IMG/VR virus record: IMGVR_UViG_3300042305_001986
Span: 1-64,000 of that record
Strand: one strand, 5' to 3'
Length of the DNA: 64,000 nt
DNA from: a virus
Position 1 is the stretch's first letter. Each line of letters starts with the position of its first letter. The position numbers were made by a program, and so were the translations under genes. Under the pieces are notes generated by a model that saw only the letters and a program-made list of their open reading frames with translations, ran no database searches and was not told the DNA's origin. This document shows positions 4,839-63,804 of this stretch, in pieces.

Positions 4839-4862
4839 TTTAGTATTTTTTTTAATTATTAA

Positions 4863-6437
4863 TTATCCCTGTAAATCTATGAATCCATACATCGGGAAGG
4901 TTGGGTAATTTGTAATGTTTGTTCCATTTACAGAATAAGCAACATAATACAAATCAAGATTTCCGTAATCACTATTTGGTGTAAATGTGATCGTTCCAAG
5001 ATCAATATTATTACTAGCTATTACCGAAGGATCTACAATCGGTAATGCACCGTCTCCATCTAAGAAACCTGGTCTACCTTCACAAATTGCAAATCTATAA
5101 CCTTCAGCACAAATGTGGAATCTATATGTTTGACCTCTAGTAAGTGTTACTGTTGGATTAATCGTGACATTGAAATTCGCAAAATTCCAATAACTACTTT
5201 GAACATTAGTAATACTATAATCTCTAGTTGTTGAAGCGGGTCCTGTACAACAGTTAATTAACAGAGCCTTCATGGGTGTTGAAGCAACTGGGTTAGTATT
5301 ACCCACAAAACCGGCAACAAATTGATATATACAATCATTCAATGAGAAATACATTGTGTTGAGAGACGGAGAAGGATACTGTTGAATTTGTCCCAACATA
5401 CCATAAGTCAATGGTACATAACTACCGGCACTGAAAACATAAATTTGTGAATCATCTCCAGCAACAGTTGGTCTAGGATCATTAGATCTAAAACAAATGT
5501 TAGTAGTGATATAGTTTGAATTTGATTTGAAGCTTTCAATATCTTCACAATTCAAAAAGTCACAAATATGAATTTCTTCATCATTCGGTTCACCATAAAC
5601 TGAAGAAAACGCGTTAGCGATAAATCCAACAAACTGATTATATTTACTTTCAGCACTAAAACAAGTGAACCCTAGTGGTGATACCGTTGGTGTTACCGTT
5701 CTTGTTGGTGTAACTGTAGGTGTTTTTGTTGGTGTAGAGGTCTTTGTAAGAGTTGGTGTTGGTGTAAGTGTATTGTTAGGTGTTTGTGTGACAGTGGGTG
5801 TTGTTGTATTCGTTGGTGTTTGAGTTGGTGTTACCGGTGCCCCACAACAAATCTCATCTCGAAGATCAATATTTAATATACCATCACCTGATGGTGTTGC
5901 TTGACTGATAAGGATACTATTCAAATAAACACAACCAAGAATTTCATAAGGTTCGTTTAGTCCCAAACTTACCTCCGTAGAAGTTTGATCACATAAAGTA
6001 TAATTTACTTTTATAGTGTCAGGACAAAATGATCCAAACTGTACATCAGGACAATTATATAATAGTTCAATATCTTCATAACACAAACACTGTCCACTTG
6101 GTGTTACTGTAGGTGTTGTTGTTTTTGTTGGTGTTGTTGTTTTTGTTGGTGTTATTGTTGGTGTTACAGTATTGGTAGGTGTTGGTGTTGGCGTTACAGT
6201 ACCAACAACATTTTCACAGATACATCCAGTATCTGCTGAAATTATGTATTCATAACATGTTACATTCGGTAAACCAATCTCGTCAGAACTAAGGTCTACG
6301 TAAATTGGAAAGTCGGATGAAGTGATATCGTTGGCAACCAAAATGTTACCACCACCTGTACAGTTACTAACATATACATCATATAAAGTAGCTCCTACGG
6401 CCGCTTCAGTTAAATTTATTTCAATTGTTGTTGGCAT
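4863..6437 (-). CDS. Mosaic Thr/Pro-stalk virion-like protein (524 aa)
   Basis: Residues 1-79 are the shared N-terminal domain (LYDVYVSNC then YEYIISADTGC). A Thr/Pro linker covers 80-114. The module at 116-199 (CLCYED ... FCPDTIKVNYTLC ... EICCG) matches residues ~455-545 of the 608-residue protein. A second Thr/Pro linker covers 202-254. The C-terminal ~270 residues are different: they end in a beta-sandwich-like domain with NPTVTLTRGQTYRFHI, a pattern seen in cupredoxin-like folds but without an evident copper site. It sits between two similar genes transcribed the same way (24 bases to the 608-residue gene, 12 to the 769-residue gene). Probably a fibre or decoration protein with exchangeable tips. 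The fold of the C-terminal domain is a guess. Confidence 0.7.
   Translation of the reverse strand: MPTTIEINLTEAAVGATLYDVYVSNCTGGGNILVANDITSSDFPIYVDLSSDEIGLPNVTCYEYIISADTGCICENVVGTVTPTPTPTNTVTPTITPTKTTTPTKTTTPTVTPSGQCLCYEDIELLYNCPDVQFGSFCPDTIKVNYTLCDQTSTEVSLGLNEPYEILGCVYLNSILISQATPSGDGILNIDLRDEICCGAPVTPTQTPTNTTTPTVTQTPNNTLTPTPTLTKTSTPTKTPTVTPTRTVTPTVSPLGFTCFSAESKYNQFVGFIANAFSSVYGEPNDEEIHICDFLNCEDIESFKSNSNYITTNICFRSNDPRPTVAGDDSQIYVFSAGSYVPLTYGMLGQIQQYPSPSLNTMYFSLNDCIYQFVAGFVGNTNPVASTPMKALLINCCTGPASTTRDYSITNVQSSYWNFANFNVTINPTVTLTRGQTYRFHICAEGYRFAICEGRPGFLDGDGALPIVDPSVIASNNIDLGTITFTPNSDYGNLDLYYVAYSVNGTNITNYPTFPMYGFIDLQG
5676..6200 (-). repeat. Two Thr/Pro-encoding repeat tracts
   Basis: Tracts at about 6096-6200 and 5676-5834 encode [11 protein letters not shown]-like and TPTQTPTNTTTPT-like linkers of the 524-residue protein. 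They are separated by the Cys-rich module shared with the next gene. Confidence 0.75.
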
Positions 6438-27997: not shown

Positions 27998-28724
27998 AAA
28001 AACAAGAACACAAAGAAAAAAAGAAGATACTAAACCAAGAGAGGTTTATGTAAACAAGAAAGAATTAATAAATTCTATAGTCACTAAAAGACCGAGAAAA
28101 AAGTTTTTGACTGATTCACAAAAAGATTATTATGATATTCTTTGTAACAATCAGATCACGATTTGTTCAGGTCCGGCTGGAGTTGGGAAATCTTTTGTTG
28201 CTATGAGAGCGGCTATTGATTTACTTTGTGACCCTGAAAATGGTTATGAGAAAATTATAATAGTAAGACCAGCTGTTGAAGCGGAAGAAAAATTGGGATC
28301 ACTACCTGGTAATGTAGAGGAAAAACTCGATCCATACATCTTTCCGAGTTATTACTTAATGAATAAGATCATTGGTAAAGAAGCTAGAGAAAAATTGAAA
28401 GAAGTAGAGGTAATTGAGGTCTTTGCCTTGGCGTACATGAGGGGTATGAATATTGACAACTCAATTTTGATTTTTGAGGAGGGTCAAAACGCAACACCAA
28501 AACAAATGAAACTTCTTTTAACTCGTATTGGATTTAATAGTAAGTTCTTCATTTCAGGGGATTTGGAACAAACAGATAGATATAAAGATAAAACTCATTC
28601 AGGTTTATACGACGCATTGGTAAAATTTAAGGACGTGGAAGACATAGGAGTGTTTAGTTTTGACAATAAAGATATTATTCGTAATCCTCTCATCAATAAA
28701 ATTTTGGACAAGTACGAACAATGA
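27966..28724 (+). CDS. phoH: PhoH-like ATPase
   Basis: Walker A is GPAGVGKS (residues 69-76), followed by IIIVRPAVEAEEKLGSLPG, the family signature, and SKFFISGDLEQTD. Walker B appears as ILIFEEGQNATP rather than the usual DEAQN: the first acidic residue is Glu and Ala is Gly. PhoH proteins are frequent in marine phages; their exact role (RNA or phosphate-starvation linked) is unsettled. The first ~45 residues are basic. The start overlaps the dUTPase stop by 32 bases; a second ATG lies two codons later. Confidence 0.92.
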   Translation: MLMDSGQQEYKKTRTQRKKEDTKPREVYVNKKELINSIVTKRPRKKFLTDSQKDYYDILCNNQITICSGPAGVGKSFVAMRAAIDLLCDPENGYEKIIIVRPAVEAEEKLGSLPGNVEEKLDPYIFPSYYLMNKIIGKEAREKLKEVEVIEVFALAYMRGMNIDNSILIFEEGQNATPKQMKLLLTRIGFNSKFFISGDLEQTDRYKDKTHSGLYDALVKFKDVEDIGVFSFDNKDIIRNPLINKILDKYEQ

Positions 28725-36328: not shown

Positions 36329-37828
36329 ATGTCTGACCATCGTTCGTATTTTAGTAGAAACAATACCATAGTTTTTAATTCTGAGGTAAACACGGGGAGA
36401 AACCCTGTTACAGAATTATTTTTTGGATCAAACTTTCCAGCCATAGGAACAAAATCTTTCTCAAGATTTATTTTTGATCTTGATTTAGAACCCCTCCAAC
36501 AGAAAATTACTGAAGGATATCTTAATTTATCCTGTAATACAAATATCACTCACGAATTAAGAATGACCAATTCCTCGGCCTTTGAGGATCTATTGAATGA
36601 AACGAATAGTGATGGTAGAAGAAGGTCAACTTCATTTGATTTGATTCTTTTTAGAATACCAAAATCGGGTGGTGCAACAGGAACAACACAGAGTTGGGAT
36701 GAAGGTGTTGGATATGATTTCAACGAAACCTCAGTAGATAATGTTGACAGTCAATATTATAGAAACATTATTGAAACTGATAAATCCTATTCATTGAGAC
36801 CATCAAATTACTTTGACAGACAACTTATTTACGATTGGAGCACAAACGGAATTTATATAAATGACAATAGTGGAACAAGTGGTAAGGTCAATTATTCTGC
36901 ACTCACCATTGTAGATACACAACATTTTGAGTTTGGTGATGAGGACATTTCATTTGACATGACGAGTGAAATTAACTCTATTTTAAACGGATCTTTAACC
37001 AATAATGTAGGGTGGGGTATTGCTTATGTACCACAAGTAGAAAACTTAACAGGTTTGAGTGAATCATATTTTGTAGGATTCTTCACAAGACACACTCAAA
37101 CATTTTATGAACCCTACCTTTACTCCACATGGAATGATGTAATCGATGATTCAAGAACCAATTTCACCGAAGGTACATCCAATGATCTTTATCTCTACAT
37201 ATCAAGGAACGGATCTCCAATAAATTTGGATTCAAGTCCTACGGTGGACATCTTGGATCCAAACGGAGATGAAATTGCGGGATTGACAGGTATTTCAACC
37301 TGTAGAGTTAGTAAAGGGATATATAAGGTTTCAGTACCTGCCATTACGGGGGGAAGTTTGAATTGTTTATATACCGATAGATGGAAAAATCTTGTGTTAA
37401 ATAGTGTTGCTTTATCCAATATTGATAATGAATTTGAACTCAAATCATATAGTGATAGTTTACAATATGACACCTCATTACCCGACACTCAAGAGTACGG
37501 ATTTACATTCTATGGAATTCAATACGCTGAGAAAATATTGAACACCGATCAAAGAAAAATATCGGTTATACCTAAAAAAGCATATACAAAGTCACATATT
37601 GTGGAAGATATTGATGTTCAATATAGAATATATGTAAAGGAGGGTCAAACAGAGGTTCAAGTTACAGATTGGACTGAACTTAATAGAACCCCACAAGAAT
37701 ACTTCTTCATATTAGATCTAAAAGACAAGATTCCAAATGAATATTTTATTGATTTACAACTAAATCAAAATAACAATGTTGTCACATACAAAAACGAAAT
37801 AAATTTCCAAGTCGTAAATAAAAAATGA
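36329..37828 (+). CDS. Beta-rich baseplate or tail protein (499 aa)
   Basis: Residues 1-250 look like a DNRLRE-type jelly roll (FIFDLDLEPLQQKITEGYL, FDMTSEINSIL), and ~280-380 an Ig-like domain (DLYLYISRNGSPIN, GIYKVSVPAITGG). The C-terminal part has further strands. No signal peptide. It follows the gp5-like gene and precedes a small Cys-rich protein by a four-base overlap. Likely a tail or baseplate wedge protein. Confidence 0.6.
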   Translation: MSDHRSYFSRNNTIVFNSEVNTGRNPVTELFFGSNFPAIGTKSFSRFIFDLDLEPLQQKITEGYLNLSCNTNITHELRMTNSSAFEDLLNETNSDGRRRSTSFDLILFRIPKSGGATGTTQSWDEGVGYDFNETSVDNVDSQYYRNIIETDKSYSLRPSNYFDRQLIYDWSTNGIYINDNSGTSGKVNYSALTIVDTQHFEFGDEDISFDMTSEINSILNGSLTNNVGWGIAYVPQVENLTGLSESYFVGFFTRHTQTFYEPYLYSTWNDVIDDSRTNFTEGTSNDLYLYISRNGSPINLDSSPTVDILDPNGDEIAGLTGISTCRVSKGIYKVSVPAITGGSLNCLYTDRWKNLVLNSVALSNIDNEFELKSYSDSLQYDTSLPDTQEYGFTFYGIQYAEKILNTDQRKISVIPKKAYTKSHIVEDIDVQYRIYVKEGQTEVQVTDWTELNRTPQEYFFILDLKDKIPNEYFIDLQLNQNNNVVTYKNEINFQVVNKK

Positions 37829-38079
37829 GTAAAATTATTTTAAATAATGAAGATATGAAAGAAATCTTGAGAAGATTCCTTATTGAAGCTTACATTACCG
37901 AGAAGAAGAAAAAATCAAATAAGTTATGTTCTCGTGGTATATCAGCAGCTAAAGCAAAATATGATGTATATCCAAGTGCATATGCTAATGGATATGCGGT
38001 TCAAGTGTGTAAAGGAAGGATGCCAGGTCTTGATGGTAAGAAAAGATGTTCAGGATCCTACTGTAAAGGTAAAAAATAA
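37825..38079 (+). CDS. Small Lys/Cys-rich phage protein (84 aa)
   Basis: KLCSRGISAAKAKYDVYPSA, then YANGYAVQVCKGRMPGL, resembles a motif common in marine phage proteins ('AKAKFDVYPSAYANAYA'). The C-terminus has more cysteines (KRCSGSYCKGKK). Basic, so it may bind DNA or membranes. The conserved AYANG part is family knowledge; function unknown. Last gene before the uptake cassette; the downstream 93 bases hold the cassette's promoter. Confidence 0.65.
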   Translation: MSKIILNNEDMKEILRRFLIEAYITEKKKKSNKLCSRGISAAKAKYDVYPSAYANGYAVQVCKGRMPGLDGKKRCSGSYCKGKK

Positions 38080-38096
38080 CCCCTTATTATTATTTA

Positions 38097-38113
38097 CTTA
38101 ACTTTCTCTTAAC
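38097..38113 (+). promoter_or_regulatory. Tandem CTTAAC repeats (Pho-box-like)
   Basis: CTTAAC occurs at 38097-38102 and again at 38108-38113, an 11-bp period. Such spacing is typical of response-regulator sites of the PhoB/PhoP family (B. subtilis TTAACA-like repeats, cyanobacterial CTTAACC). The second copy ends nine bases before the -35 element. Identity as a Pho box is inference. Confidence 0.4.
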
Positions 38114-38122
38114 AACCTTCTT

Positions 38123-38151
38123 TTGACCTATTGTAATTATAGACGTATAAT
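38123..38151 (+). promoter_or_regulatory. Sigma-70-like promoter for the uptake cassette
   Basis: TTGACC at 38123-38128 and TATAAT at 38146-38151 are separated by exactly 17 bases. It also contains a TTTG (38122-38125) and a TAATTTAC (from 38148), loosely like the Bacteroidota -33/-7 elements. It stands 21 bases before the first ATG of the cassette, so the two genes have their own promoter. Confidence 0.6.
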
Positions 38152-38172
38152 TTACAATAAATTTAAAAAAAG

Positions 38173-39765
38173 ATGATTATGAGAAAACAAATTTTGCTGA
38201 CCCTGTCACTATTTATGGGTCTTTTGACAACTAATGCTCAAGAATGGACTTGGGATTATGTAAACTACAGAGGTGCCTTCCCTGTAACTGACAACACAAC
38301 AGCAACTGATTGGACTTATGGATGGACAAATTGGGATCCACAAAACACAGAATACCCAACCCCGTCTATGATCCTTTCTTCAGATATTACGGTAAATACA
38401 ACCATCGGAGGTGTTGTTGAACTCCAAAACAAAGTATATGTCAAGAATGGTGCGGTTTTGACAATTCAACCAGGAACAATTATCAGAGGAGACGCATCCA
38501 CACAAGCAACTTTGATTGTAACAAAAGGTTCAAAAATTATTGCACAAGGGACACAAGACCAACCCATCGTTTTTACATCCAATCAACCTGTGGGTGAGAG
38601 AGCTGAGGGTGATTGGGGAGGATTAGTTATTTTGGGTAATGCGATCAACAATCAACCTGGCGGTATTGCAAATATTGAAGGTATTCCAGCCTCTTTGGAT
38701 ACTGAATACGGTGGAACTGATGATAATGACAACTCAGGTATATTAGAATATGTTAGAGTAGAATTTTGTGGTATCGCTCTTGAACCAAACAAAGAAATCA
38801 ACGGAATTACCTTTGGTTCTGTAGGTTCAGGAACTTATGTGAATAATCTTCAAGTATCTTATTCAGGTGATGATTCATTTGAATGGTTCGGTGGAACTGT
38901 AAATTGCAAACACCTCATCGCTTATAGTGGTATTGATGATGATTTTGATACCGACTTTGGTTACAGAGGAAAAGTTCAATTTGTTTTGTCCATCAGAAAC
39001 AAATATATGTATGATGCAGTCGGTGACTCCAACGCATTTGAATCAGACAACGATGGTCAAGGATCTGCTAATGAACCCCTAACCTCACCTGTTTTTTCTA
39101 ATGTAACTTTGGTTGGGCCGTTTGGTGATGATATCACCGATGACCTTCCAAACGGAGAAACTTTTGAGAAGGCTTTTAGATTAAGAAGAAACACTTCAAC
39201 TTCTGTATTCAACTCTTTGGTTACAGGTTGGGAAAAAGGTGTTTCTATTGAGGGCACTTCAACCCAAGTCAATGTAACAAACGGAGATTTGGTTTTTGCT
39301 AACAATATTTTGGCAGATCTTCCTGTTGGTTCAAATTGTGTTTCAGGAACGGAAGATTTTTACAATTCATTCTTTGGTGTAAACAACAACGACTCAACAA
39401 CAACAATTGAACAAATTGATTGGGTTAATTTGTTTGTTGATTTGGGTTTGACTCCTGATGCTAGACTTAGCGAAAGCAATTCACCAGCTTTGGGAGCGGA
39501 TTTCACACATCCACTTTTATCTAACCCTGTTGTGATCGGTGTTGAAGATGAACCCACATCCAACTTCACAATTTACCCCAACCCAACATCTGACTTTTTG
39601 AATGTTGTTTCACCAAATAGAACTCCTATCTTCGTGATGAATCAGGTGGGTCAAAGAGTTTATGAGGATTATGCACCAACCACAATCAATCTTTCAAACT
39701 TTGAAGATGGAATTTATTTCATTCAAACATCCAACGATGTTCAGAAGTTTGTAATACAAAAGTAA
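38173..39765 (+). CDS. Secreted parallel beta-helix protein with T9SS type A sorting domain
   Basis: Signal peptide: MIMRKQILLTLSLFMGLLTT followed by NAQ (cleavage near residue 23). The middle (VELQNKVYVKNGAVLTIQPG, GDWGGLVILGNAINN) has right-handed beta-helix character. The C-terminal ~75 residues, with FTIYPNPTSDFLNVV, NQVGQRVYED and GIYFIQTSNDVQKFVIQK, are a type A type-IX secretion sorting domain. Such proteins are secreted through the T9SS of Bacteroidota and often attached to the cell surface. The phage must use the host's T9SS. Two-gene operon: only one base lies between this gene and the receptor. Probably works with that receptor in nutrient capture; exact ligand unknown. Confidence 0.9.
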   Translation: MIMRKQILLTLSLFMGLLTTNAQEWTWDYVNYRGAFPVTDNTTATDWTYGWTNWDPQNTEYPTPSMILSSDITVNTTIGGVVELQNKVYVKNGAVLTIQPGTIIRGDASTQATLIVTKGSKIIAQGTQDQPIVFTSNQPVGERAEGDWGGLVILGNAINNQPGGIANIEGIPASLDTEYGGTDDNDNSGILEYVRVEFCGIALEPNKEINGITFGSVGSGTYVNNLQVSYSGDDSFEWFGGTVNCKHLIAYSGIDDDFDTDFGYRGKVQFVLSIRNKYMYDAVGDSNAFESDNDGQGSANEPLTSPVFSNVTLVGPFGDDITDDLPNGETFEKAFRLRRNTSTSVFNSLVTGWEKGVSIEGTSTQVNVTNGDLVFANNILADLPVGSNCVSGTEDFYNSFFGVNNNDSTTTIEQIDWVNLFVDLGLTPDARLSESNSPALGADFTHPLLSNPVVIGVEDEPTSNFTIYPNPTSDFLNVVSPNRTPIFVMNQVGQRVYEDYAPTTINLSNFEDGIYFIQTSNDVQKFVIQK

Positions 39766-39766
39766 A

Positions 39767-42550
39767 ATGAAATACTTCAACTTATTTATATTTTTATTCT
39801 TACCTTTTTGTTTATTTTCACAATATAATTTATCTGGCACGGTCAACGACTCTCAATCACGGGAGTCGTTGATTGGTGCAACGGTATATATTGAGGAATT
39901 AGGTAAAGGAACGATGAGTGACCTTGATGGAAACTTCTCAATTCAAAATATTCCTTCAGGGGTTTATAATGTTAGATTCAGTTTTATCGGTTATGACACT
40001 TCGGTTCAAAGTATAAATATGGTTGGAAAAAGTGGGGTTGTTGATGTATCTCTCAACCCCGTCTTTTTGGAAATAGGTGAGGCTACAGTTGTTGCTCAAG
40101 CGAATCAACAATCAACAACACAGATGATTGCTTTACAAAAAAGATCAGCATCAGTTATTGATGGTGTTTCTTCGGAGGTTTTCAGTAAAACACCCGACGC
40201 TAAAGCATCCGATGTATTCAAAAGAGTGGGGGGTGTAACGATACAAGAAAATAAATTTGTGATTATCAGAGGTTTAAACGATAGATATAACTTCGCTTAT
40301 ATCAACGGAACTCCTCTTCCTTCAACCGAATCAGATAGAAGAGCATTTTCATTTGATTTGTTTCCTTCCAATATGATTGACAACTTGTATGTTAATAAAT
40401 CGTCTTCACCTGATCTCTCTGGTGAATTCTCAGGTGGTTTAATTAACATCAATACAACAGATCCGAAGGAAGTGACATATCAGAATTTTCAGATCGGAAC
40501 ATCATTCAATACGATGACCACCTTCCAAGACTTTGGAACTTACAGAGGGAGTCCGATGGATCCAATTGGGTTGGGATCGGAATTTAGATGTTTACCCGAC
40601 AATATTCCAAACACTTCTGAGTTTGTAAATTTATCCAAACAAGAAAGGTCCGAACTTGCATCGTTGATTCAAACCGATTGGTCAACATATTCAAGAAAAG
40701 CACCTGTATCTTCTACTTTTCAATATTCAGTAGGAAAAAATTATTCATTTGGAAGTAGAACCCTTCTTTTAAGTGGAGCTTATAATTATTCAAGTCAGTT
40801 CAATACTACCACTACAACAAGAAGAGATTTTGAAGAACAAAGTTTGGAAGTTGTTCAAAAGATGGAACTTAATGATTCAGTTTTTGTTCACAATATTGCA
40901 AACAGTGGTCTTCTTAATTTTTCTTTGTTATTAAATCCTAACAATACCATAAAATTAAAGAACTTTTACACCATAAATTCTGAAGATAGAGTCAATGTAA
41001 GACAAGGTGTAAGGGAAATGGATAATGACCCAAGACAATGGGAAAAATCCACAAATTTTTGGTACACACAAAATAACTTTTTATCACAACAGTTAATTGG
41101 AACTCACAACATCATAAATTCAAAGTTGAATTGGAATTTGAGTTACAACAATGTTAAAAGAGATATTCCAAACTTAAGAAGAATAGTTTATCGAAAATAT
41201 TCTTTGAATGAAGATGATTCAAATACACAATATACCGCAGTTATACAATCAAATGGAACTATTCCCACCGCTGCGGGAAATATGTTTTGGTCTTATTCAG
41301 ATGAAGATCTATATTCAGGAAAATTAGATTGGTCAAGAAATATAACACTCGGTTCATTTGAAAATGAAGTGAAGATAGGAGGGATATATCAACACAGAGA
41401 TAGAAATTTTATCTCCCGTAACTTAGGTTATTCACAATACAAACCACAAAACGGTTATTTTGATAGTTCATTACTTCTATTGGATCCAAGTCAGATTTTT
41501 TCACAAGAAAATATGGGACTATTGGATAATGGGATGGGTGGATTCAAATTAGATGAATCAACCAACGTGGATGATAGTTATAACGCAAACTCCACATTAG
41601 GGGTGGGATATACATCATTTGATACAAAATATAGATCATTCAGATTTATATATGGGTTAAGAGTTGAAAATTACAATCAAAACTTTTTCTACACAGAATT
41701 TGGTTCAAATAAACCAATTCATATCAATAGTAATATAACTGACTTCTTACCTTCATTTAATTTTGTTTATACAATAAATGACAAGACCCAACTCAGGTCG
41801 TCCCTATATTCAAGTGTTTCAAGACCTGAATTTAGAGAACTTGCACCCTTCACCTTCTACAACTTTATTCAAGATAATATTATAACAGGAAATCCATATT
41901 TGGAGAGAACCAAAATAAATAACCAAGAAGTAAGGTTTGAGTTTTATCCCGATCTAAATGATATTTTTTCTATTTCAATATTCAACAAAAACCTGACCAA
42001 TCCAATTGAATTGATTAATAGAACTGGTGTTTCAGGAGCACCAGAGATTTATTATTCAAATGTTCAAAGTGCGTTTATCAGAGGTATTGAATTTGAAGGT
42101 AAAATAAATCTGATTGACAATCTAAATCTTACATCCAATGTTTCATTGGTTCAATCTGAAGTTGATTTGAATGGATTTGAAGGATCTGAAAATGGAAGAC
42201 CACTACAAGGTCAATCACCTTATGTTTATAACTTCGGTTTGTTATATAACACACAAAATAATTGGAATATTTCCGCAAGTTACAATATGGTTGGTCCGAG
42301 AATCTTCATCGTCGGAAATATTCAAGAACCATCGGTTTGGGAAAATGGAAGAAATTTGATTGATCTTCAGGTTTCCAAAAAATTCGGAAATGTTGAAATG
42401 AAGTTTAATGTTAGAGATTTACTCTCACAAGATTTGGTAATGTTCCAAGATCTTAACGGTAATGAAAAATTGGATGAGGGGGACAACAGATGGCAAGAAA
42501 CAAGGATGGGGTCAAATGTCAACTTTAGTTTGAAATATAATTTCAACTGA
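39767..42550 (+). CDS. TonB-dependent outer-membrane receptor (full length)
   Basis: Signal peptide MKYFNLFIFLFLPFCLFSQ, then a carboxypeptidase-D-regulatory-like domain at about 20-105 (SGTVNDSQSRESLIGATVYI, DGNFSIQNIPSG), a plug domain (about 130-230: KASDVFKRVGGVTI, IIRGLNDRYNF) and a barrel ending VNFSLKYNFN with the C-terminal aromatic signature. At 927 residues it is complete. Such receptors import ligands with energy from TonB. No SusD partner is present; the partner is the secreted beta-helix protein. Extra copies in a host cell could import a scarce nutrient, or alter the surface. There is no frameshift, so the gene appears functional. Confidence 0.93.
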   Translation: MKYFNLFIFLFLPFCLFSQYNLSGTVNDSQSRESLIGATVYIEELGKGTMSDLDGNFSIQNIPSGVYNVRFSFIGYDTSVQSINMVGKSGVVDVSLNPVFLEIGEATVVAQANQQSTTQMIALQKRSASVIDGVSSEVFSKTPDAKASDVFKRVGGVTIQENKFVIIRGLNDRYNFAYINGTPLPSTESDRRAFSFDLFPSNMIDNLYVNKSSSPDLSGEFSGGLININTTDPKEVTYQNFQIGTSFNTMTTFQDFGTYRGSPMDPIGLGSEFRCLPDNIPNTSEFVNLSKQERSELASLIQTDWSTYSRKAPVSSTFQYSVGKNYSFGSRTLLLSGAYNYSSQFNTTTTTRRDFEEQSLEVVQKMELNDSVFVHNIANSGLLNFSLLLNPNNTIKLKNFYTINSEDRVNVRQGVREMDNDPRQWEKSTNFWYTQNNFLSQQLIGTHNIINSKLNWNLSYNNVKRDIPNLRRIVYRKYSLNEDDSNTQYTAVIQSNGTIPTAAGNMFWSYSDEDLYSGKLDWSRNITLGSFENEVKIGGIYQHRDRNFISRNLGYSQYKPQNGYFDSSLLLLDPSQIFSQENMGLLDNGMGGFKLDESTNVDDSYNANSTLGVGYTSFDTKYRSFRFIYGLRVENYNQNFFYTEFGSNKPIHINSNITDFLPSFNFVYTINDKTQLRSSLYSSVSRPEFRELAPFTFYNFIQDNIITGNPYLERTKINNQEVRFEFYPDLNDIFSISIFNKNLTNPIELINRTGVSGAPEIYYSNVQSAFIRGIEFEGKINLIDNLNLTSNVSLVQSEVDLNGFEGSENGRPLQGQSPYVYNFGLLYNTQNNWNISASYNMVGPRIFIVGNIQEPSVWENGRNLIDLQVSKKFGNVEMKFNVRDLLSQDLVMFQDLNGNEKLDEGDNRWQETRMGSNVNFSLKYNFN

Positions 42551-42573
42551 TGTAAATATTACAGATTTTTGTG

Positions 42574-42581
42574 TATTTATT
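42574..42581 (+). promoter_or_regulatory. TATTTATT motif before small gene
   Basis: GTGTATTTATTG lies 16 bases before the ATG at 42598. Same motif class as at 23020 and 36307. Confidence 0.3.
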
Positions 42582-42597
42582 GACAAATCCCATAACA

Positions 42598-42774
42598 ATG
42601 AATTATCGGACCTATGAACTAATTAAGGAAGGAAAAGTTATTAACCAAACAGAGGCTCAATCTGCGGATTCAGCATTAGATTATTTTAATTTATTTCACG
42701 AAGATCTAATGTCTTCATCACACTACCAAATCAAATTTCGTAAATCTTCACAATCAAATCATTTGAACCTTTGA
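42598..42774 (+). CDS. Small protein of unknown function (58 aa)
   Basis: MNYRTYELIKEGKVINQTEA and SADSALDYFNLFHEDLM; a small alpha/beta protein. I use the ATG at 42598 rather than an in-frame start nine codons upstream because a TATTTATT element overlaps the latter. Its 3' end overlaps the convergent cupin-like gene by 44 bases. No family recognised. Confidence 0.5.
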   Translation: MNYRTYELIKEGKVINQTEAQSADSALDYFNLFHEDLMSSSHYQIKFRKSSQSNHLNL

Positions 42775-43000
42775 TAATTCGGTGATAACTTTCTTTGGGG
42801 ATGTTCAATACATCCCCTTTTTTCATTTCTGTTGGTAGTTGATCTTCAAATTGAAAATACCACCCGTCAGACTCCAATATCTCCACGATACGGTCGTTTC
42901 TATCACGATGCCATACCAGTTCATCACTCTCAACATTTTCTTTGAAAACACGAGTGATTATACTGTCATTTACTTCTTCCTGATAAGGATTTACCACCAT
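42731..43000 (-). CDS. Cupin-like phage protein (89 aa)
   Basis: WHRDRNDRIVEILESDGWYF, MKKGDVLNIPKESYHRII and NDLIVKIYEI follow a cupin-type strand order with an H-x-D near the start and a KGD-x-x-x-IP-x-x-x-x-H motif. Similar small proteins occur in marine T4-like phages. The ATG at 43000 (MVVNPYQEE) is chosen because it overlaps the preceding gene's stop by ten bases (ATGGTGGTAA); a longer reading would overlap ~100 bases of that gene. Possible metal or sugar binding. Confidence 0.65.
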   Translation of the reverse strand: MVVNPYQEEVNDSIITRVFKENVESDELVWHRDRNDRIVEILESDGWYFQFEDQLPTEMKKGDVLNIPKESYHRIIKGSNDLIVKIYEI

Positions 43001-43893
43001 GTTCCACCACCACTTAATCCTAAAGACTTTGCATATCTTGGTAAACGACAAGCCCAATAAGATGCAGTTGTTTTGTCTTTGGTTGTATGACACTTGTGTC
43101 TTGCAGCAAATGATCTCTTAGCCGCAGGATCTTTTAATTTAACGGCCAAAGATCCACCACCTCCGGCTGCACCAAAGGAAACTTTTTTTACATTACCCGT
43201 CTTTGGATCTTTTACATAAACCTTGAACTTTTTTCCACCACTACCACCTCTCATAGGTTTATTTAATTGAACCTTTTTTCCCTGATATTCAGCTTCATAC
43301 AACATCGGGACATCCAAAGGAACCAATTCCCCTTCATAAAGTTCAAACAATCCGATATCAGTATTTTTGATTAACCATCTGTCCACTTGATTGGTGAAGT
43401 TTTCATAACCTAAACTTCTTGCCTCTCTAAATAAAGAGAAATATTTGTCAGATCCCATCCTAAAAACATTTTCGTGAATTGAAATATTATTATCTATATG
43501 ATATTTCATTTCTTCACTCAAAACAATCTTATTTTCGTTGAGAGTTTTCCACTCAAAAATTGGCTTTTTATCCATAACTGATTCTTTTTTGTATCCTTTT
43601 ATTTGAATTCTTGTTGGTTTTTGTCCCTTCCCTGATTGAGGATCTTTCTTTTCTTTTGCTCTTTTTCTTGCACAAGCGGATTTCTTTTCTTCTTCACTCA
43701 TTTTGGAAGCCACAGATCTAGCCCTACATACAGGATAACCTTTTGTTTCACCCTCATCTCTTCCACAGGGGGGATGACCACCACCTTCCTTTTTTTTACA
43801 TATATTTACCCACGGACCTTGTGGTTGTTTTGATCCTTTAGATTTTTTCTTTTTACCAAACCAAACCGCTAAATCTTCTTTTAACTGAGACAT
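42991..43893 (-). CDS. Basic phage protein with Cys-rich N-terminus and GGGTWW C-terminus (300 aa)
   Basis: N-terminal ~100 residues are very basic with spaced cysteines (WVNICKKKEGGGHPPCGRDE, GYPVCRARSV, SACARKRAK). The middle (KPIFEWKTLNE ... IGLFELYEGE) is ordinary. The end, FAARHKCHTTKDKTTASYWA then CRLPRYAKSLGLSGGGTWW, is a motif recognisable in other phage proteins. Probable packaged or DNA-associated protein; function unproven. A TATTTATC motif precedes its ATG by ten bases. Confidence 0.6.
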   Translation of the reverse strand: MSQLKEDLAVWFGKKKKSKGSKQPQGPWVNICKKKEGGGHPPCGRDEGETKGYPVCRARSVASKMSEEEKKSACARKRAKEKKDPQSGKGQKPTRIQIKGYKKESVMDKKPIFEWKTLNENKIVLSEEMKYHIDNNISIHENVFRMGSDKYFSLFREARSLGYENFTNQVDRWLIKNTDIGLFELYEGELVPLDVPMLYEAEYQGKKVQLNKPMRGGSGGKKFKVYVKDPKTGNVKKVSFGAAGGGGSLAVKLKDPAAKRSFAARHKCHTTKDKTTASYWACRLPRYAKSLGLSGGGTWW

Positions 43894-44205: not shown

Positions 44206-46059
44206 TTATCTCAATTCTCTAAGGTCAAATGTTCTAACACCATCAACTGTGATTCTACCATAGAATCTGTTGTTCACCATCTTCTTAGCGTATCTAGTCA
44301 TGATACCCTTGATTGGGGTGAAGTTGAATGGGTTATACATAGTTGGTGTCAACTGAAGTGGTACGTATGGTGCGTAAACGTAACCTGTGTCAAGTAATGA
44401 CGTTCCCTTGTGACCAATCAAGATTTGGTTTGGTGGGAAGTATGGGTCACGGTAAACCTGGTATCTACCAGACAATGTACCAACTCTTTCAATACCCATG
44501 TTGTATTGATCCTGTTCAGGAGCTGCGTTTGAAACGTGGAAGTATTCCAAGTCATCAAAAATAGCTGAAACTTCGGACGAAACAACGATCCAGTTAGCAC
44601 CACCTCTCAATGTTGATTTGTGGATTTGTGCAGAAAGTTGGTTGATCGCAGTGATCAATGTTTGGTTCCAATCCTTCTGTGTGTACTGTGTCAATGGGTT
44701 AGCGGTTGTACCTCTCTTCCAACCGTTGTAGTCCCATCTCAACTGCCACGCTGCACCTTTTCTCAAGTCTCTCAAGATTTCTCTATCGATTTCAGCTGCG
44801 ACTTGTTCTGACAACAACGCTGTCAATTCAGCCTCAGCGTCAATGTTGTGGAAAGCGGCAACGTCTTGAGCGAGTTCAGGTGACCATTGTGCTCTCAACT
44901 TTCTTTCGGTTACAGAAACGGTAACTGATTCAAGATCAAATGAAACTTCACCAATCTTATCTTCAAATTCCAATTCCTGATAAACTCTGAAAGTACATTC
45001 AAATTGAGATCCTGCGGTTGCAGTACCTGCAACGGTCAAAGTGAGACCCGAGTAACCATCCAATGATGCCGCTCCGATAGCACATGGTTGTTGTAGATCA
45101 ACTTCCAAGTAGATCAATCCTGTAGCGTCACAGAGGTTGTCGTACGCACCACCGTTTCCAGGGTAAGAACCACTGTAGAAGGTTGTTGATTGTTGTGATC
45201 CGTATTGAACAATACCCTTACCATACTTCTGAGTAACAACTCTGAAAAGAAGATCACCAGATCCCATACCTGAGAACGCACCTGTTGATTTTGCATTGAC
45301 TCTCAAGTCAGAAAGGAAAGATTCGTTGTCCATTTCTTGACCATCAGGTCCGATCAATTTACCAGCACCTGCTGAAGAGAAACCTGACATAACAATCAAA
45401 GCTTTTCTGTAAACAGGACCTCCGTCCGCACCTGTTGCAGCAACTTGTCCACCTGTCAAAGTGTAAGCCCCTGGTATTAATGTACCGTTAGACCAAACAA
45501 CAGTTGTTGCGTTTTTAGTGATCGCGGAGAACGCTCCTTTTGAATAATCAAAAAGACCAGGAGGATCTAAAGCTGCCTCATTACCTTCGTAGAATCTATC
45601 GTAAAGGTTTTTTTGGTTGTTATTGTAACCAGCACTTGATTCTGCTTGAGTTGGTCCGTCAACAGCACCGATAGGTCCGTAGTGAATACCACCTCCATCA
45701 GCATTAGTTCCACCAACCTCATAAGCCTGAATCTTAGGTACGAAGTAGAAAAGTTTACCGATTGGTAAGTTCATCGCCTGAACAGAAACGATATCATTAG
45801 CCAAAAGTTTTGAGAAAACTCTTCTGATGATAGGGAATACAACAGTTTCGAATGAACCTGAAGAATCTGTTGATGCCGCTTCGTTAATTAAGTGAGATGC
45901 TTGGTTCTCATAAAGTTGAGCCATGTTTTCTTTTAGGTGTCCGCCCAATCCTTCCAAGAAACCAAGTTTGTCCCATTTGTTTATAGTGTCTTCTTTGATA
46001 ACTTTAAGGTGCTTAAGACCAATGTTACCAACTAAACCACTTTCTAATAATGCTCCCAT
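44206..46059 (-). CDS. gp23-like major capsid protein
   Basis: 617 residues. The start (LKVIKEDTINKWDKLGFLEG ... MAQLYENQASHLINEA) and the stretch FETVVFPIIRRVFSKLLAND followed by IVSVQAM match the N-terminal arm and core of T4 gp23 (which has 'LENQ', 'FPVLISLVRR' and 'DICGVQPM'). The LYENQ region may be where the prohead protease cuts. Longer than T4 gp23 (521), probably by an insertion in the outer domain. HK97-like fold by family. Follows the scaffold gene at 20 bases on the minus strand and precedes the terminator. Confidence 0.88.
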   Translation of the reverse strand: MGALLESGLVGNIGLKHLKVIKEDTINKWDKLGFLEGLGGHLKENMAQLYENQASHLINEAASTDSSGSFETVVFPIIRRVFSKLLANDIVSVQAMNLPIGKLFYFVPKIQAYEVGGTNADGGGIHYGPIGAVDGPTQAESSAGYNNNQKNLYDRFYEGNEAALDPPGLFDYSKGAFSAITKNATTVVWSNGTLIPGAYTLTGGQVAATGADGGPVYRKALIVMSGFSSAGAGKLIGPDGQEMDNESFLSDLRVNAKSTGAFSGMGSGDLLFRVVTQKYGKGIVQYGSQQSTTFYSGSYPGNGGAYDNLCDATGLIYLEVDLQQPCAIGAASLDGYSGLTLTVAGTATAGSQFECTFRVYQELEFEDKIGEVSFDLESVTVSVTERKLRAQWSPELAQDVAAFHNIDAEAELTALLSEQVAAEIDREILRDLRKGAAWQLRWDYNGWKRGTTANPLTQYTQKDWNQTLITAINQLSAQIHKSTLRGGANWIVVSSEVSAIFDDLEYFHVSNAAPEQDQYNMGIERVGTLSGRYQVYRDPYFPPNQILIGHKGTSLLDTGYVYAPYVPLQLTPTMYNPFNFTPIKGIMTRYAKKMVNNRFYGRITVDGVRTFDLRELR

Positions 46060-50657: not shown

Positions 50658-52535
50658 TTATGATTTTAGTAACTCGTTCAATTTTTGATCAATCTCCTCT
50701 AAAGATTTTTTAGCTTTGTTAATGTTTAGTTCAACAACACCGTTTAACATACTATCTTCAAGGATTAAATTCTCATCTCTTTCCTTGGATTCGGGAGTTA
50801 CTTCTGCGGTGGGAGTTTCTGTTTCAGCACCACCTGTTTCAGCACCACCTGTTTCAGATGCGGGTTCGGGTGTTGTGGTTCCGCCACCTAAATCACCAAA
50901 ACCACTTAAATCAGGACTTGTTGTTTCTCCACCACCGGGTGTTGTTGCCTCACCAGCACCCGCTTCACCTTCCTCCTTTGGTTTTCCATTACCGTATAAC
51001 TTGTCAATATTGTCAAATATACCTGTTTTAGTAATTACATTCGGAGTTTCCTCAAGTTCCTTAGCTACAGCTTTTTCAATTCTTTGTTGTTGAATATCCA
51101 ACTTAATTTCTTCATCACTGAATCCAAGAATGTGTTTCTTAGCCCAAGAAGCAGATACCGCTTGAATACCATTTCCAGGATCAGTAACCGCGTCTCTGTA
51201 AAGTGCAATTTTAGATTGAAGTTGTTCAATCTTCAACATATCCTGTTGTGTTGATGGGTTTGTTAGACCCAAAGTGAAGTTATTAAGTTCGTCCTCAAAT
51301 CCCAAGATATATAGATGAATAATCGCGATTTTATTCAATTCTTGAATCATCGCTTGTTGAATTCTATTAATGGTTCTTGAGAATCTAATATCCAAAAGAG
51401 AAAGATTCTTACCATCACCAACCACTTCTTCAAAACCAAGGAATGCTTTTGGTATTCTCAAAGCAGTTAACAATTTCTTTTGAATATATTCAATATCCGC
51501 AATTTCACTCAGATTTTGAGCACCCGGTAAAGTATCAATTGGATTTGGTGCGTTTGGATCACGAACAGGAATAAAATAATCTTGGTCTACAGCCATCTGA
51601 TTATATCTCATATCAACATTACCATTCTTGGGATCCACAATTTGGTCTCTCTTGAATTTGTTGGCAACTCTCTGTACATACGCTTCCACATCTTTGTCAT
51701 CCATATTTCCAACAAAAACTTTAAAAACCCTTCTTTCAGGTGCTCTTGATGTTCTATAGATCAACATCGCATCTTCAGACAAAAGAAGTTGTTTCCAAAC
51801 CCTTCTTGCTTTTTCTAACATAGAAGTTCCATAAGGTAATTTTGAGTCGTCACCCAAAAGTCTAAAGTGAGCAACCTCCCACGTATTGAATTCTATATTT
51901 TTATTTTTCCATGTGAAAGTCAAGTGAGTGTTTTCAACACCGGTATTCATTGCAACGGTATTAACAACCATACCCCTCTCAAATCTTTCGATTTCAATAT
52001 TTGGTAGTTGTTGTGCTCCGACAACACCTTGTTCAGGATCAATCTTTAAGTAGAGAAAATTATCACCATACTTACAAGTGTTTCTTGTCCACATAGGTAA
52101 GTTGGTGTTGATGTCCAACTTGTTATTGAACAAGTCGGCCAAAATACTTTTGATTCTATTAGATTCTGAATATATTTGAAGAATAAATCCATTTTCGTTC
52201 GGAGTGGTTGATTCCTCGGCATAAATGTCCAACGCTGCGGATATTTCGGGTGTAAACTCCATAGATTCATAGTCATAATATGAAGCCAACCTTGTTGGTT
52301 CATAATATACGGCTTGTGTGTAAAGATTGTTTTCAACCTTTGACCATTGGTTTGCCAAATACAAACTCTGTTGAGCTTGAAGTTTTTCCTTCTCGTATTC
52401 CCCTTTGGATTTGGTTCTTAAAATTTCTTTTTTATCAAACCTATATTGAGGAACTTGTTGATCCAATGTGGAATCTGGTCCAAAGACCCTTGAAAGTCGT
52501 TGCCAAATTGTATATTGTTGATTAGTTTGTGCCAT
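50658..52535 (-). CDS. gp20-like portal protein
   Basis: Residues ~75-105 (YYEPTRLASYYDYESMEFTP, EISAALDIYAEE) match T4 gp20 ('R-x-x-x-Y-R-x-M-x-x-x-x-E-I-x-x-A-x-x-I'). GMVVNTVAMNTGVENTH and PYGTSMLEKARRVWKQLLL, followed by SEDAMLIYRTSRAPERRVFK, follow the gp20 order. The ~90-residue Gly/Thr/Glu-rich region before the end (GGGETTSPDLSGFGDLGGG) is extra compared with T4. Forms the dodecameric channel at the packaging vertex. An AATAAATA (TATTTATT on the coding strand) lies 24 bases upstream. Confidence 0.88.
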   Translation of the reverse strand: MAQTNQQYTIWQRLSRVFGPDSTLDQQVPQYRFDKKEILRTKSKGEYEKEKLQAQQSLYLANQWSKVENNLYTQAVYYEPTRLASYYDYESMEFTPEISAALDIYAEESTTPNENGFILQIYSESNRIKSILADLFNNKLDINTNLPMWTRNTCKYGDNFLYLKIDPEQGVVGAQQLPNIEIERFERGMVVNTVAMNTGVENTHLTFTWKNKNIEFNTWEVAHFRLLGDDSKLPYGTSMLEKARRVWKQLLLSEDAMLIYRTSRAPERRVFKVFVGNMDDKDVEAYVQRVANKFKRDQIVDPKNGNVDMRYNQMAVDQDYFIPVRDPNAPNPIDTLPGAQNLSEIADIEYIQKKLLTALRIPKAFLGFEEVVGDGKNLSLLDIRFSRTINRIQQAMIQELNKIAIIHLYILGFEDELNNFTLGLTNPSTQQDMLKIEQLQSKIALYRDAVTDPGNGIQAVSASWAKKHILGFSDEEIKLDIQQQRIEKAVAKELEETPNVITKTGIFDNIDKLYGNGKPKEEGEAGAGEATTPGGGETTSPDLSGFGDLGGGTTTPEPASETGGAETGGAETETPTAEVTPESKERDENLILEDSMLNGVVELNINKAKKSLEEIDQKLNELLKS

Positions 52536-52575: not shown

Positions 52576-54345
52576 TTATCTTCTCATTCCTCCGAAGAGC
52601 CATAAATATTTCTCTACGTCTTTCTGATTGTAACTTCGATTGGAATCGTTATTTGTTTGACCATAATACGATGGAACACTCGGATTCATAAAGTCAGTTT
52701 TATATTTTACACTTTCATTTACCGTCCAAGAATCAATCATTGCTTTTGCTTGTTCGGTAACCTTTGTGAGTTTGGAAAAACTACTTTCACCAACATATAA
52801 AGCCATAGCAACAGACATAATCAAGTCGTCATGTTGTCCTTTGATATGGTCGGGTCTTCCGTTTATGTAAACAAACGTCAGTAATTCATTATATAATCTT
52901 GATGATCTTATCTTAAACCCGTGTCTAATATATTCTTCAAAAGTTGCAATAATCTGAACCCTTTTGTTGTTAAAATTAATTCCCGGTATTTTCTCTTGTG
53001 CTTTTGGATCATATTTCCATATATCAGTTGATACTTGACCATCAATATAAAGGTTTTTATACCCCAACTCTTGCATCTTCCTTGCAGTTGATACACCCAT
53101 ACCACCCGTAATGTCAATAACCACAAATGCGTTGTATCTTTGTGCCCATTTTAAGGCAATTTCAGCGGCAATATCAGGTGGAACTTTGTCCAAAAATTCA
53201 ACAACCTGTTCTCTTGTATCAAAATCAACTATATTAAAGGTTGTAAAGTCCTCTGAATCACCTCTTGACACATCCACACCCATAATATATTTGTGATCCA
53301 ATATTGGATCCTCCCAAACCCATAACGCCCCTCCCATCATCTTGTCTTTGGGTTCTTTAATATCATTTTTCTTGATTTTTTCCATAGTTCCAGAGTCAAT
53401 GACATTGTCACCCGAACCAAGAAAGTTACACTCCAATTCTTGAGACACCTTTCTTCTATCGTATTTCAACTTCTTAACCATAGTTTCAAACCAAGAAGAA
53501 CAAGGTTTATAACCTTCATTGATTTTTTGAATAACAAATTCAAGATCCAAATCCCAACCCGCACCATCCAACCTAATTACGTGTTCCTCTTCAGAATATT
53601 CTTCTTTATTTAACAAATAATGAACTATATCTTTGGTTTTTACTAAATAAAGGTCTTTGGTATATCTTGGATCTCTATACCAATACATTTCAGATATTTT
53701 GAAATCATTCATACCCCGTAAAGCTTGATCGTAAATTGAATAATAAATTTGATCAAATCCGTTGGGGGTTGAAATAACTATAACTTTACCACCCGTTGAG
53801 AGTGAGGCCATACAAGCCGCCCAGAAATCATCATCAGCTTCAATATATGCCGCCTCGTCGAATACAAGAATAGTTGGGGTATAACCTCTCAATGCGTCTT
53901 TTGATGTTGCAACCGCTTTTACTTCACAACCATTTGTCAATCTGAAGTGACGTTGGGAGTTTTTTTCCGATGAAAAACTAACGCCAAACCAATCGGGCCA
54001 TTGCTCTTGGAACGATCTGATCTTATCTGCCATACCGACGGCAGTATCAAGTTTGTTTGCGATGATCAATATCTTTTCAGGTTTTCCCTTCGGAGCCGTG
54101 ATCAACTTTTTGGAAATCCAAGCTGCGGTGACAGTGGAAACTCCCGCCTGTCTATATTTTAATGCAATATTTTCCTCAAATTTTTCGAAATCCTCAATCA
54201 ATTTCACTTGGTCAGGAAACAACTTCAGGGGTACGAACCCCTGAACTGTTTGATCATAAGTTTTCAAATATGTTTTTAAGGCATATTCAGGACTTTTGAC
54301 ACATTTGGCATATTCTAATAATACCTGTTCTCTTGTTAAACCCAT
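52576..54345 (-). CDS. gp17-like terminase large subunit
   Basis: ATPase: Walker A-like KYRQAGVST (residues 63-71), Walker B ILVFDEAAYIE (159-169) and the coupling motif VISTPNG. Nuclease (RNase H fold): GVDVSRGDSEDF, then VVIDITGGMG and QHDDLIMSVAMAL, holding the metal-binding acids. At 589 residues it is close to T4 gp17 (610). It pumps and cuts concatemeric DNA. No small terminase was recognised next to it. Upstream gene spaced three bases. Confidence 0.93.
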   Translation of the reverse strand: MGLTREQVLLEYAKCVKSPEYALKTYLKTYDQTVQGFVPLKLFPDQVKLIEDFEKFEENIALKYRQAGVSTVTAAWISKKLITAPKGKPEKILIIANKLDTAVGMADKIRSFQEQWPDWFGVSFSSEKNSQRHFRLTNGCEVKAVATSKDALRGYTPTILVFDEAAYIEADDDFWAACMASLSTGGKVIVISTPNGFDQIYYSIYDQALRGMNDFKISEMYWYRDPRYTKDLYLVKTKDIVHYLLNKEEYSEEEHVIRLDGAGWDLDLEFVIQKINEGYKPCSSWFETMVKKLKYDRRKVSQELECNFLGSGDNVIDSGTMEKIKKNDIKEPKDKMMGGALWVWEDPILDHKYIMGVDVSRGDSEDFTTFNIVDFDTREQVVEFLDKVPPDIAAEIALKWAQRYNAFVVIDITGGMGVSTARKMQELGYKNLYIDGQVSTDIWKYDPKAQEKIPGINFNNKRVQIIATFEEYIRHGFKIRSSRLYNELLTFVYINGRPDHIKGQHDDLIMSVAMALYVGESSFSKLTKVTEQAKAMIDSWTVNESVKYKTDFMNPSVPSYYGQTNNDSNRSYNQKDVEKYLWLFGGMRR

Positions 54346-63391: not shown

Positions 63392-63781
63392 GGGGGCGAT
63401 TTTGGATTTGACCGGTATGGTCAGGCACAGAGTGCACGTAGTGAGATGAGATCTATCACTTTAATCTACGGTTTCAAAAACAACTGGCGAAACTTTCGCA
63501 AAACTTCAGTCTATTGGTTTGATCCAAACTGAAGAGGTTTACGCAGCCTAAGGCTCCGAAAACCTACGGGTCGGTCAGGACATATACCTATGAACAGAAG
63601 TCCACTGAAGGTTGGTTACCTTAATAACCAAAGGTTGTAGTACATCTTAAAGTATTACCACCGTGGCTGAACGGTGTGAGAATTCAGATATTTCGGATTA
63701 TTGTGAATTAATAATGACCTAAACGTGTAGTACTCTCTGTTTGAGATACTAGGGACGGCGGTTCGAGTCCGCCCGCCTTCA
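63392..63781 (+). ncRNA. ssrA: tmRNA
   Basis: The 5' end GGGGGCGATTTTGGATTTGA is the tmRNA tRNA-like start; its first seven bases pair with CGCCTTC at the 3' end. The T arm is GGCGG-TTCGAGT-CCGCC. CCA is not encoded. The tag reading frame most likely starts at GGC (63486) and ends at TAA (63549-63551), which lies in the AGCC-TAA-GGCT hairpin as in other tmRNAs. It encodes 21 residues starting GETFAKLQ and ending EEVYAA, longer and different from the short ALAA-ending tags usual in Bacteroidota. CTTCAGT (63504-63510) and ACTGAAG (63528-63534) form a hairpin inside the tag frame. It rescues stalled ribosomes and tags products for proteolysis. Confidence 0.95.
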
Positions 63782-63804
63782 CTAAATAAACTTAATTTTC
63801 AAAA

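Follow-up and report, generated by a model that had tools for sequence, protein, structure and literature searches.

Why would a virus with T4-like structural genes carry the parts of an outer-membrane uptake system? The question is raised by a 64,000-nucleotide (nt) stretch of DNA (the window), which covers bases 1 to 64000 of the 118,536-bp viral record IMGVR_UViG_3300042305_001986. Its source is a T4-like virus of Bacteroidota bacteria. On the plus strand, the window encodes a beta-helix surface protein of 530 amino acids (aa; 38173-39765) and a TonB-dependent receptor of 927 aa (39767-42550), with a single base between the two open reading frames (ORFs). We regard the pair as, quite likely, a phosphorus-scavenging auxiliary cassette, acquired by T4-like phages from their Bacteroidota hosts, that would be controlled by host PhoB. 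Phosphorus is suggested as the nutrient because the genes are homologous to pairs induced by depletion of inorganic phosphate (Pi), because such pairs are linked to PhoB in bacteria, and because a bacterial phosphate-control (Pho) motif precedes the phage pair.

Relationship of the pair to phosphate-starvation genes

An earlier note on this DNA, made from the sequence alone, had described an intact beta-helix gene sorted by the type IX secretion system (T9SS) next to a complete receptor gene, and we confirmed both the ORFs and their domains. The beta-helix protein has an ordinary signal peptide and, at residues 467 to 527, a type A T9SS sorting domain, for which PF18962 (Por_Secre_tail; 37.6 bits against a cut-off of 27) and TIGR04183 both exceeded their cut-offs. 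The prediction of a beta-helix fold finds support in an AlphaFold model of moderate confidence (mean pLDDT of 73, with about 80 to 96 in the helix core). Foldseek searches with the helix part returned weak matches only, to tailspikes, pectate lyases, and polygalacturonases; the tail matched T9SS C-terminal domains. In the receptor, CarbopepD_reg_2, Plug, and both TonB-receptor barrel models each scored above cut-off. Neither protein matched a PHROG family, and a sequence search of solved structures found no match for the beta-helix domain or the receptor.

The beta-helix protein is a homolog of the low-Pi exoproteins FI, FII, and FIII of Flavobacterium. Meanwhile, the receptor is a homolog of a PhoBR-linked TonB-dependent transporter (TBDT) of the Fjoh_0545 type, and its set of Pfam domains matches that listed for Fjoh_0545. 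In Flavobacterium johnsoniae, Fjoh_0543 (PhoR), Fjoh_0544 (PhoB), Fjoh_0545 (TBDT; pf07715, pf13715, and pf14905), and Fjoh_0546 (FII; pectin-lyase fold) form a Pi-depletion cluster, in which Fjoh_0545 and Fjoh_0546 are induced with log2 fold changes of 8.0 and 9.9, respectively (PMC8115612). The layout that this study gives for Fjoh_0542 to Fjoh_0546 was found again in a Flavobacterium genome of 6,096,872 bp (L252), as OprP-PhoR-PhoB-receptor-beta-helix. The beta-helix protein and receptor of the window matched the L252 pair with E values of 4e-45 and 4e-50, and matched the second type of Pi-induced pair with E values of 2e-52 and 8e-67. The family was present in 197 of 200 sampled Flavobacterium genomes, and the closest bacterial relatives came largely from aquatic metagenome-assembled genomes (MAGs).

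We compared 80 bacterial beta-helix loci, in nearly all of which a homologous receptor adjoins the beta-helix gene. The receptor comes first in 66 loci and second in 5; the order in the window is inverted relative to most bacterial pairs. A PhoB homolog was encoded within three genes of the bacterial locus in 37 of the 80 cases, compared with 0 of 154 control ORFs, and PhoR was additionally present in 23 of these 37. PhoB and PhoR were assigned by best-scoring family models (below equivalog cut-offs) together with 54 to 90% identity to the PhoB of L252.

Repeats of TTAAC with an 11-nt period were first noticed upstream of the phage copies. The exact sequence TTAAC-N6-TTAAC is found once in the entire record (38098-38113, plus strand), 75 nt before the beta-helix start. 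By chance, 0.7 copies would be expected anywhere in the record and well under 0.01 in a 250-nt stretch at this place. Bacterial receptor promoters, which had not been used when the repeats were noticed, served as an independent test set. Upstream of bacterial receptors, 48 of 65 sequences scored at least 9/10 (13 were exact), compared with 8.4% of 628 other genes (0.3% exact). Furthermore, an unsupervised search of 63 bacterial receptor promoters, with no phage sequence in the input, returned the motif TTAAC..T..GTTAAC.T.....TAA, which consists of three TTAAC-like repeats with an 11-nt period. When we scanned the whole phage record with this bacterial motif, the top site was at 38087-38113, 86 nt before the pair (17.7 bits; runner-up, 13.1 bits). 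The motif also had its top site before phoB (27 bits), phosphate porin/pst genes (up to 30 bits), and DUF47 genes (22 bits), which supports its designation as a putative Bacteroidota Pho box. Only true pst, porin, and phoB loci inform this comparison, since the PstS genes of most close bacterial genomes fell below the family cut-off; these genes had no box upstream. Among phages, the site before the beta-helix gene ranked first for this motif in the window, L002, L005, L064, L081, and L082. Two loci, L081 and L086, come from contigs of 295 and 233 kb, respectively, that carry gp23.

The earlier note had also credited the pair with its own promoter. This is plausible, as the region 38060-38172 forms a conserved footprint across six relatives; the start that the note set for the locus, at 38123, leaves out the key element at 38098-38113. 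In the six-relative alignment of the promoter and leader (38080-38172, plus strand), the repeats are almost fully conserved within the window's clade, the spacer just 5' of them is variable, and a conserved block (TTGTAATTATA..CGTATAATTTACAATAAA) lies 3' of them. A near-palindromic block that follows the Pho box and precedes the start codon (TTGTAATTATA..CGTATAATTTACAA, 38128-38162) is conserved in the six relatives and is possibly an operator or a leader hairpin.

Insertion site, selection, and spread among phages

The pair lies between phage genes. On its left are a 499-aa gene with no assigned function (36329-37828, plus strand) and, at the border of the cassette, an 84-aa gene (phrog_27331; 37825-38079, plus strand). 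On its right is a convergent 300-aa gene, again with no assigned function (phrog_7595; 42991-43893, minus strand), followed by the T4-like major capsid protein gene gp23 (44206-46059, minus strand; PF07068, 245 bits). Genes for a T4-like portal (50658-52535) and a T4-like terminase, TerL (52576-54345), are nearby on the minus strand. The order from the 499-aa gene through the pair to gp23 recurs at 80 to 100% identity in many contigs of different metagenomes. Scans with the two flanking genes recovered the same flanks with the pair in 9 related T4-like loci and without it in 100. In L296 to L311 the flanking genes are directly adjacent, and in other pair-less relatives the gap is filled by various small genes; the 84-aa gene is kept beside the empty site. 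Because relatives with the same flanks have an empty or otherwise filled site, we interpret the pair as inserted DNA at a convergent junction whose content varies. The borders do not mark a chimeric assembly, the concern raised by the earlier note, since the junctions recur in independent contigs across metagenomes and pair-less relatives show the same flanks. Across this phage group, the junction between the 84-aa and 300-aa genes (42550-42991 in the window, and its equivalent in relatives) is a variable insertion site.

Purifying selection has acted on both genes. The ratio of nonsynonymous to synonymous substitution rates (dN/dS) in the phage clade was 0.06 to 0.10 in most comparisons, at dS of about 0.2 to 1.6, and reached 0.18 for the receptor of L004. 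The latter (3040-5817) is nearly identical to the receptor of the window except for a divergent segment at about residues 480 to 620, which suggests that this segment was exchanged.

Trees of both genes were built, as the earlier note had recommended. The beta-helix tree contains at least five changes between host and phage labels, and by this phylogeny phages acquired the gene on five or more occasions. The window falls within a 13-row phage clade (98*) beside MAGs of the Crocinitomicaceae/Cryomorphaceae type. Phage receptors form one clade (99*) with a topology that matches the beta-helix tree, so that a single capture of the pair, with later movement among dissimilar phages, is probable. 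The receptors of L013 to L026 and L056 lack the N-terminal CarbopepD_reg domain. Many phages have a beta-helix gene with no receptor nearby, for example on the 290-kb contigs of L048 and L049, which carry gp23 and TerL. This distribution suggests that the phage protein may add to a receptor made by the host, in the way that phage PstS works alongside host PstCAB, and the beta-helix-only phages would then parallel pstS-only cyanophages.

Other observations concern the wider distribution of the family. L066 to L080 form a separate T4-like clade in which the beta-helix gene has no nearby receptor and, in most cases, no Pho box. In another viral contig (L064), a 564-aa protein with a purple acid phosphatase N-terminal domain (PF16656; 566-2260) is encoded about 8 kb from the pair. 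The phage record of L089 and L090 encodes further secreted proteins of Bacteroidota type at 103401-108952, one with GCTDPxAxNYNPxA repeats and another, of 699 aa, with a metalloprotease-like HEVGHYFGL motif. A search for the T4 portal had no match in 25 smaller records, nor in controls, and for that reason is uninformative; phage-like neighbors are present at L064 and L017. Annotated phage records gave only distant matches to the pair. Among them, the pair of huge phage LR745206 is distant (27 to 37% identity), has the same order as in the window, and lacks a clear Pho box. In MT838075, a 5.7-kb fecal record, the receptor precedes the beta-helix gene as in bacteria, and this record may be bacterial DNA. 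A Fluviicola-like pair in L123 (Glaciecola amylolytica CP034120, labeled a gammaproteobacterium) reflects either transfer or a mislabeled genome. Elsewhere in the window, a PhoH-type gene lies upstream of the pair (28107-28718), and ARAGORN called a tmRNA gene at 63392-63782 with an unusual tag, GETFAKLQSIGLIQTEEVYAA.

Alternative explanations and a proposed role

Despite the phosphate context, the receptor could be a SusC-like carbohydrate importer that gives the infected cell more carbon, a role proposed for Mar_Mega_1 and LR745206. The LR745206 receptor is annotated as SusC (PMC9723777), and many polysaccharide lyases have a beta-helix fold. We consider carbohydrate import highly unlikely here. 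The receptor scored below the cut-offs of SusC/RagA models and its partner had no Pfam match to the SusD family, the bacterial relatives adjoin PhoB and PhoR, Pi induction has been published for homologs (PMC8115612), and the promoter contains a phosphate motif. A SusCD glycan importer in particular was rejected on the basis of the partner's missing SusD match, ordinary signal peptide, and T9SS tail, together with the PhoB context.

TonB receptors commonly serve as phage receptors, and the pair might instead remodel the surface, by shutting out superinfecting phages that depend on the host receptor or by capturing a ligand from competitors. The divergent segment of the L004 receptor is compatible with loop exchange of this sort. 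However, a host phosphate-control motif is unexpected for exclusion, the beta-helix gene lacks a nearby receptor in many phages, and selection has been purifying overall. The suggestion in the earlier note of a surface changed against competitors found no support, and we judge remodeling to be highly unlikely. Neutral passenger DNA would agree with the habit of T4-like phages, including the relatives examined here, of holding variable genes at such convergent junctions. Nevertheless, the low dN/dS, the junctions kept in independent contigs, and the repeated label changes between host and phage make a neutral passenger or a chimera extremely improbable.

Several points weigh against a phosphorus-scavenging cassette under PhoB control. 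Identity to the F. johnsoniae-type pairs is modest (36 to 39% for the beta-helix protein and 23 to 27% for the receptor), and about half of the bacterial loci have no PhoB nearby, partly owing to short contigs. The third repeat is degenerate in the phage promoter, and the box is weak or absent in several phages that carry the beta-helix gene, including several beta-helix-only lineages. Computational prediction of Pho boxes is unreliable for phage genomes, and predicted boxes can fail binding tests (PMC10976474). Furthermore, the evidence is all of one kind, namely sequence, from which we infer that PhoB binds, that the pair is expressed during infection, what its ligand is, and that phage yield rises.

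If the cassette does scavenge phosphorus, phosphorylated host PhoB in a phosphate-limited cell would bind TTAAC-N6-TTAAC at 38098-38113 and activate the two-gene operon. The beta-helix protein would pass through Sec and then the host T9SS and, once on the cell surface, may bind phosphorus compounds or help to break them down. The receptor would import the ligand through the outer membrane with host TonB. In this way, the supply of phosphate for phage DNA synthesis and late assembly could be kept up while host expression is shut down.

Such a role would mean that phages of Bacteroidota also reprogram phosphorus supply, through outer-membrane machinery that is still wired to host PhoB. It would suggest a phosphate reading for the TonB receptors of megaphages, provide a testable Pho-box motif for Bacteroidota, and lend evolutionary weight to the so far uncharacterized FI/FII protein family. 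An infected, phosphate-starved cell might stay supplied, as viruses of ocean cyanobacteria achieve with a different gene.

Comparison with known systems

The closest counterparts are the PUS III/IV pairs of F. johnsoniae (Fjoh_3857/3856 and Fjoh_0545/0546; PMC8115612), which share the receptor architecture, a homologous beta-helix partner, adjacency, linkage to PhoB in bacteria, and the promoter motif. In contrast, the pair in the window is in a phage genome, begins with the beta-helix gene, and has no PhoB or PhoR nearby; its partner is T9SS-sorted with an ordinary signal peptide, whereas that of F. johnsoniae is a lipoprotein. ElpS of Caulobacter crescentus (PMC2996285) is likewise a phosphate-starvation surface protein, associated with alkaline phosphatase activity, and is 31 to 36% identical to FI-FIII (PMC8115612). 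However, it is a lipoprotein released by the type II secretion system.

The earlier note knew of no phage with this pair. A phage-encoded TonB-dependent receptor has in fact been reported in the megaphages Mar_Mega_1 and LR745206 (PMC9723777), the latter with the pair in the window's order. There the receptor was read as SusC for carbohydrate, and the accessible text mentions neither a beta-helix partner, in LR745206 or otherwise, nor a link to phosphate. Our search of literature available without subscription found no report of a receptor and beta-helix pair in phages.

Phage phosphate genes have so far been known mainly from cyanophages. The likeness to cyanophage pstS that the earlier note drew for nutrient import proved apt, with the nutrient, which it had left unspecified, now suggested by homology to phosphate-starvation pairs and by the Pho-box motif of the phage copy. 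Cyanophage pstS and phoA under host PhoBR (PMC10976474 and work cited there) are also host-derived phosphate genes in T4-like phages, under host Pho-box control and sporadically and repeatedly acquired. Unlike the periplasmic phosphate-binding protein of cyanophages, the window encodes outer-membrane and surface parts, in Bacteroidota and with control that is predicted. By analogy, the cassette is most likely an outer-membrane variant of the cyanophage pstS strategy. The plant-associated Bacteroidetes studied in PMC8115612 are reported there to lack PstSCAB. It seems likely that T4-like and jumbo phages of Bacteroidota captured the host's surface phosphorus-scavenging protein independently in several lineages, some of them together with its receptor and a host Pho box, so that the host's own phosphate sensor would re-equip the outer membrane on demand, as a counterpart of pstS in hosts without PstSCAB.
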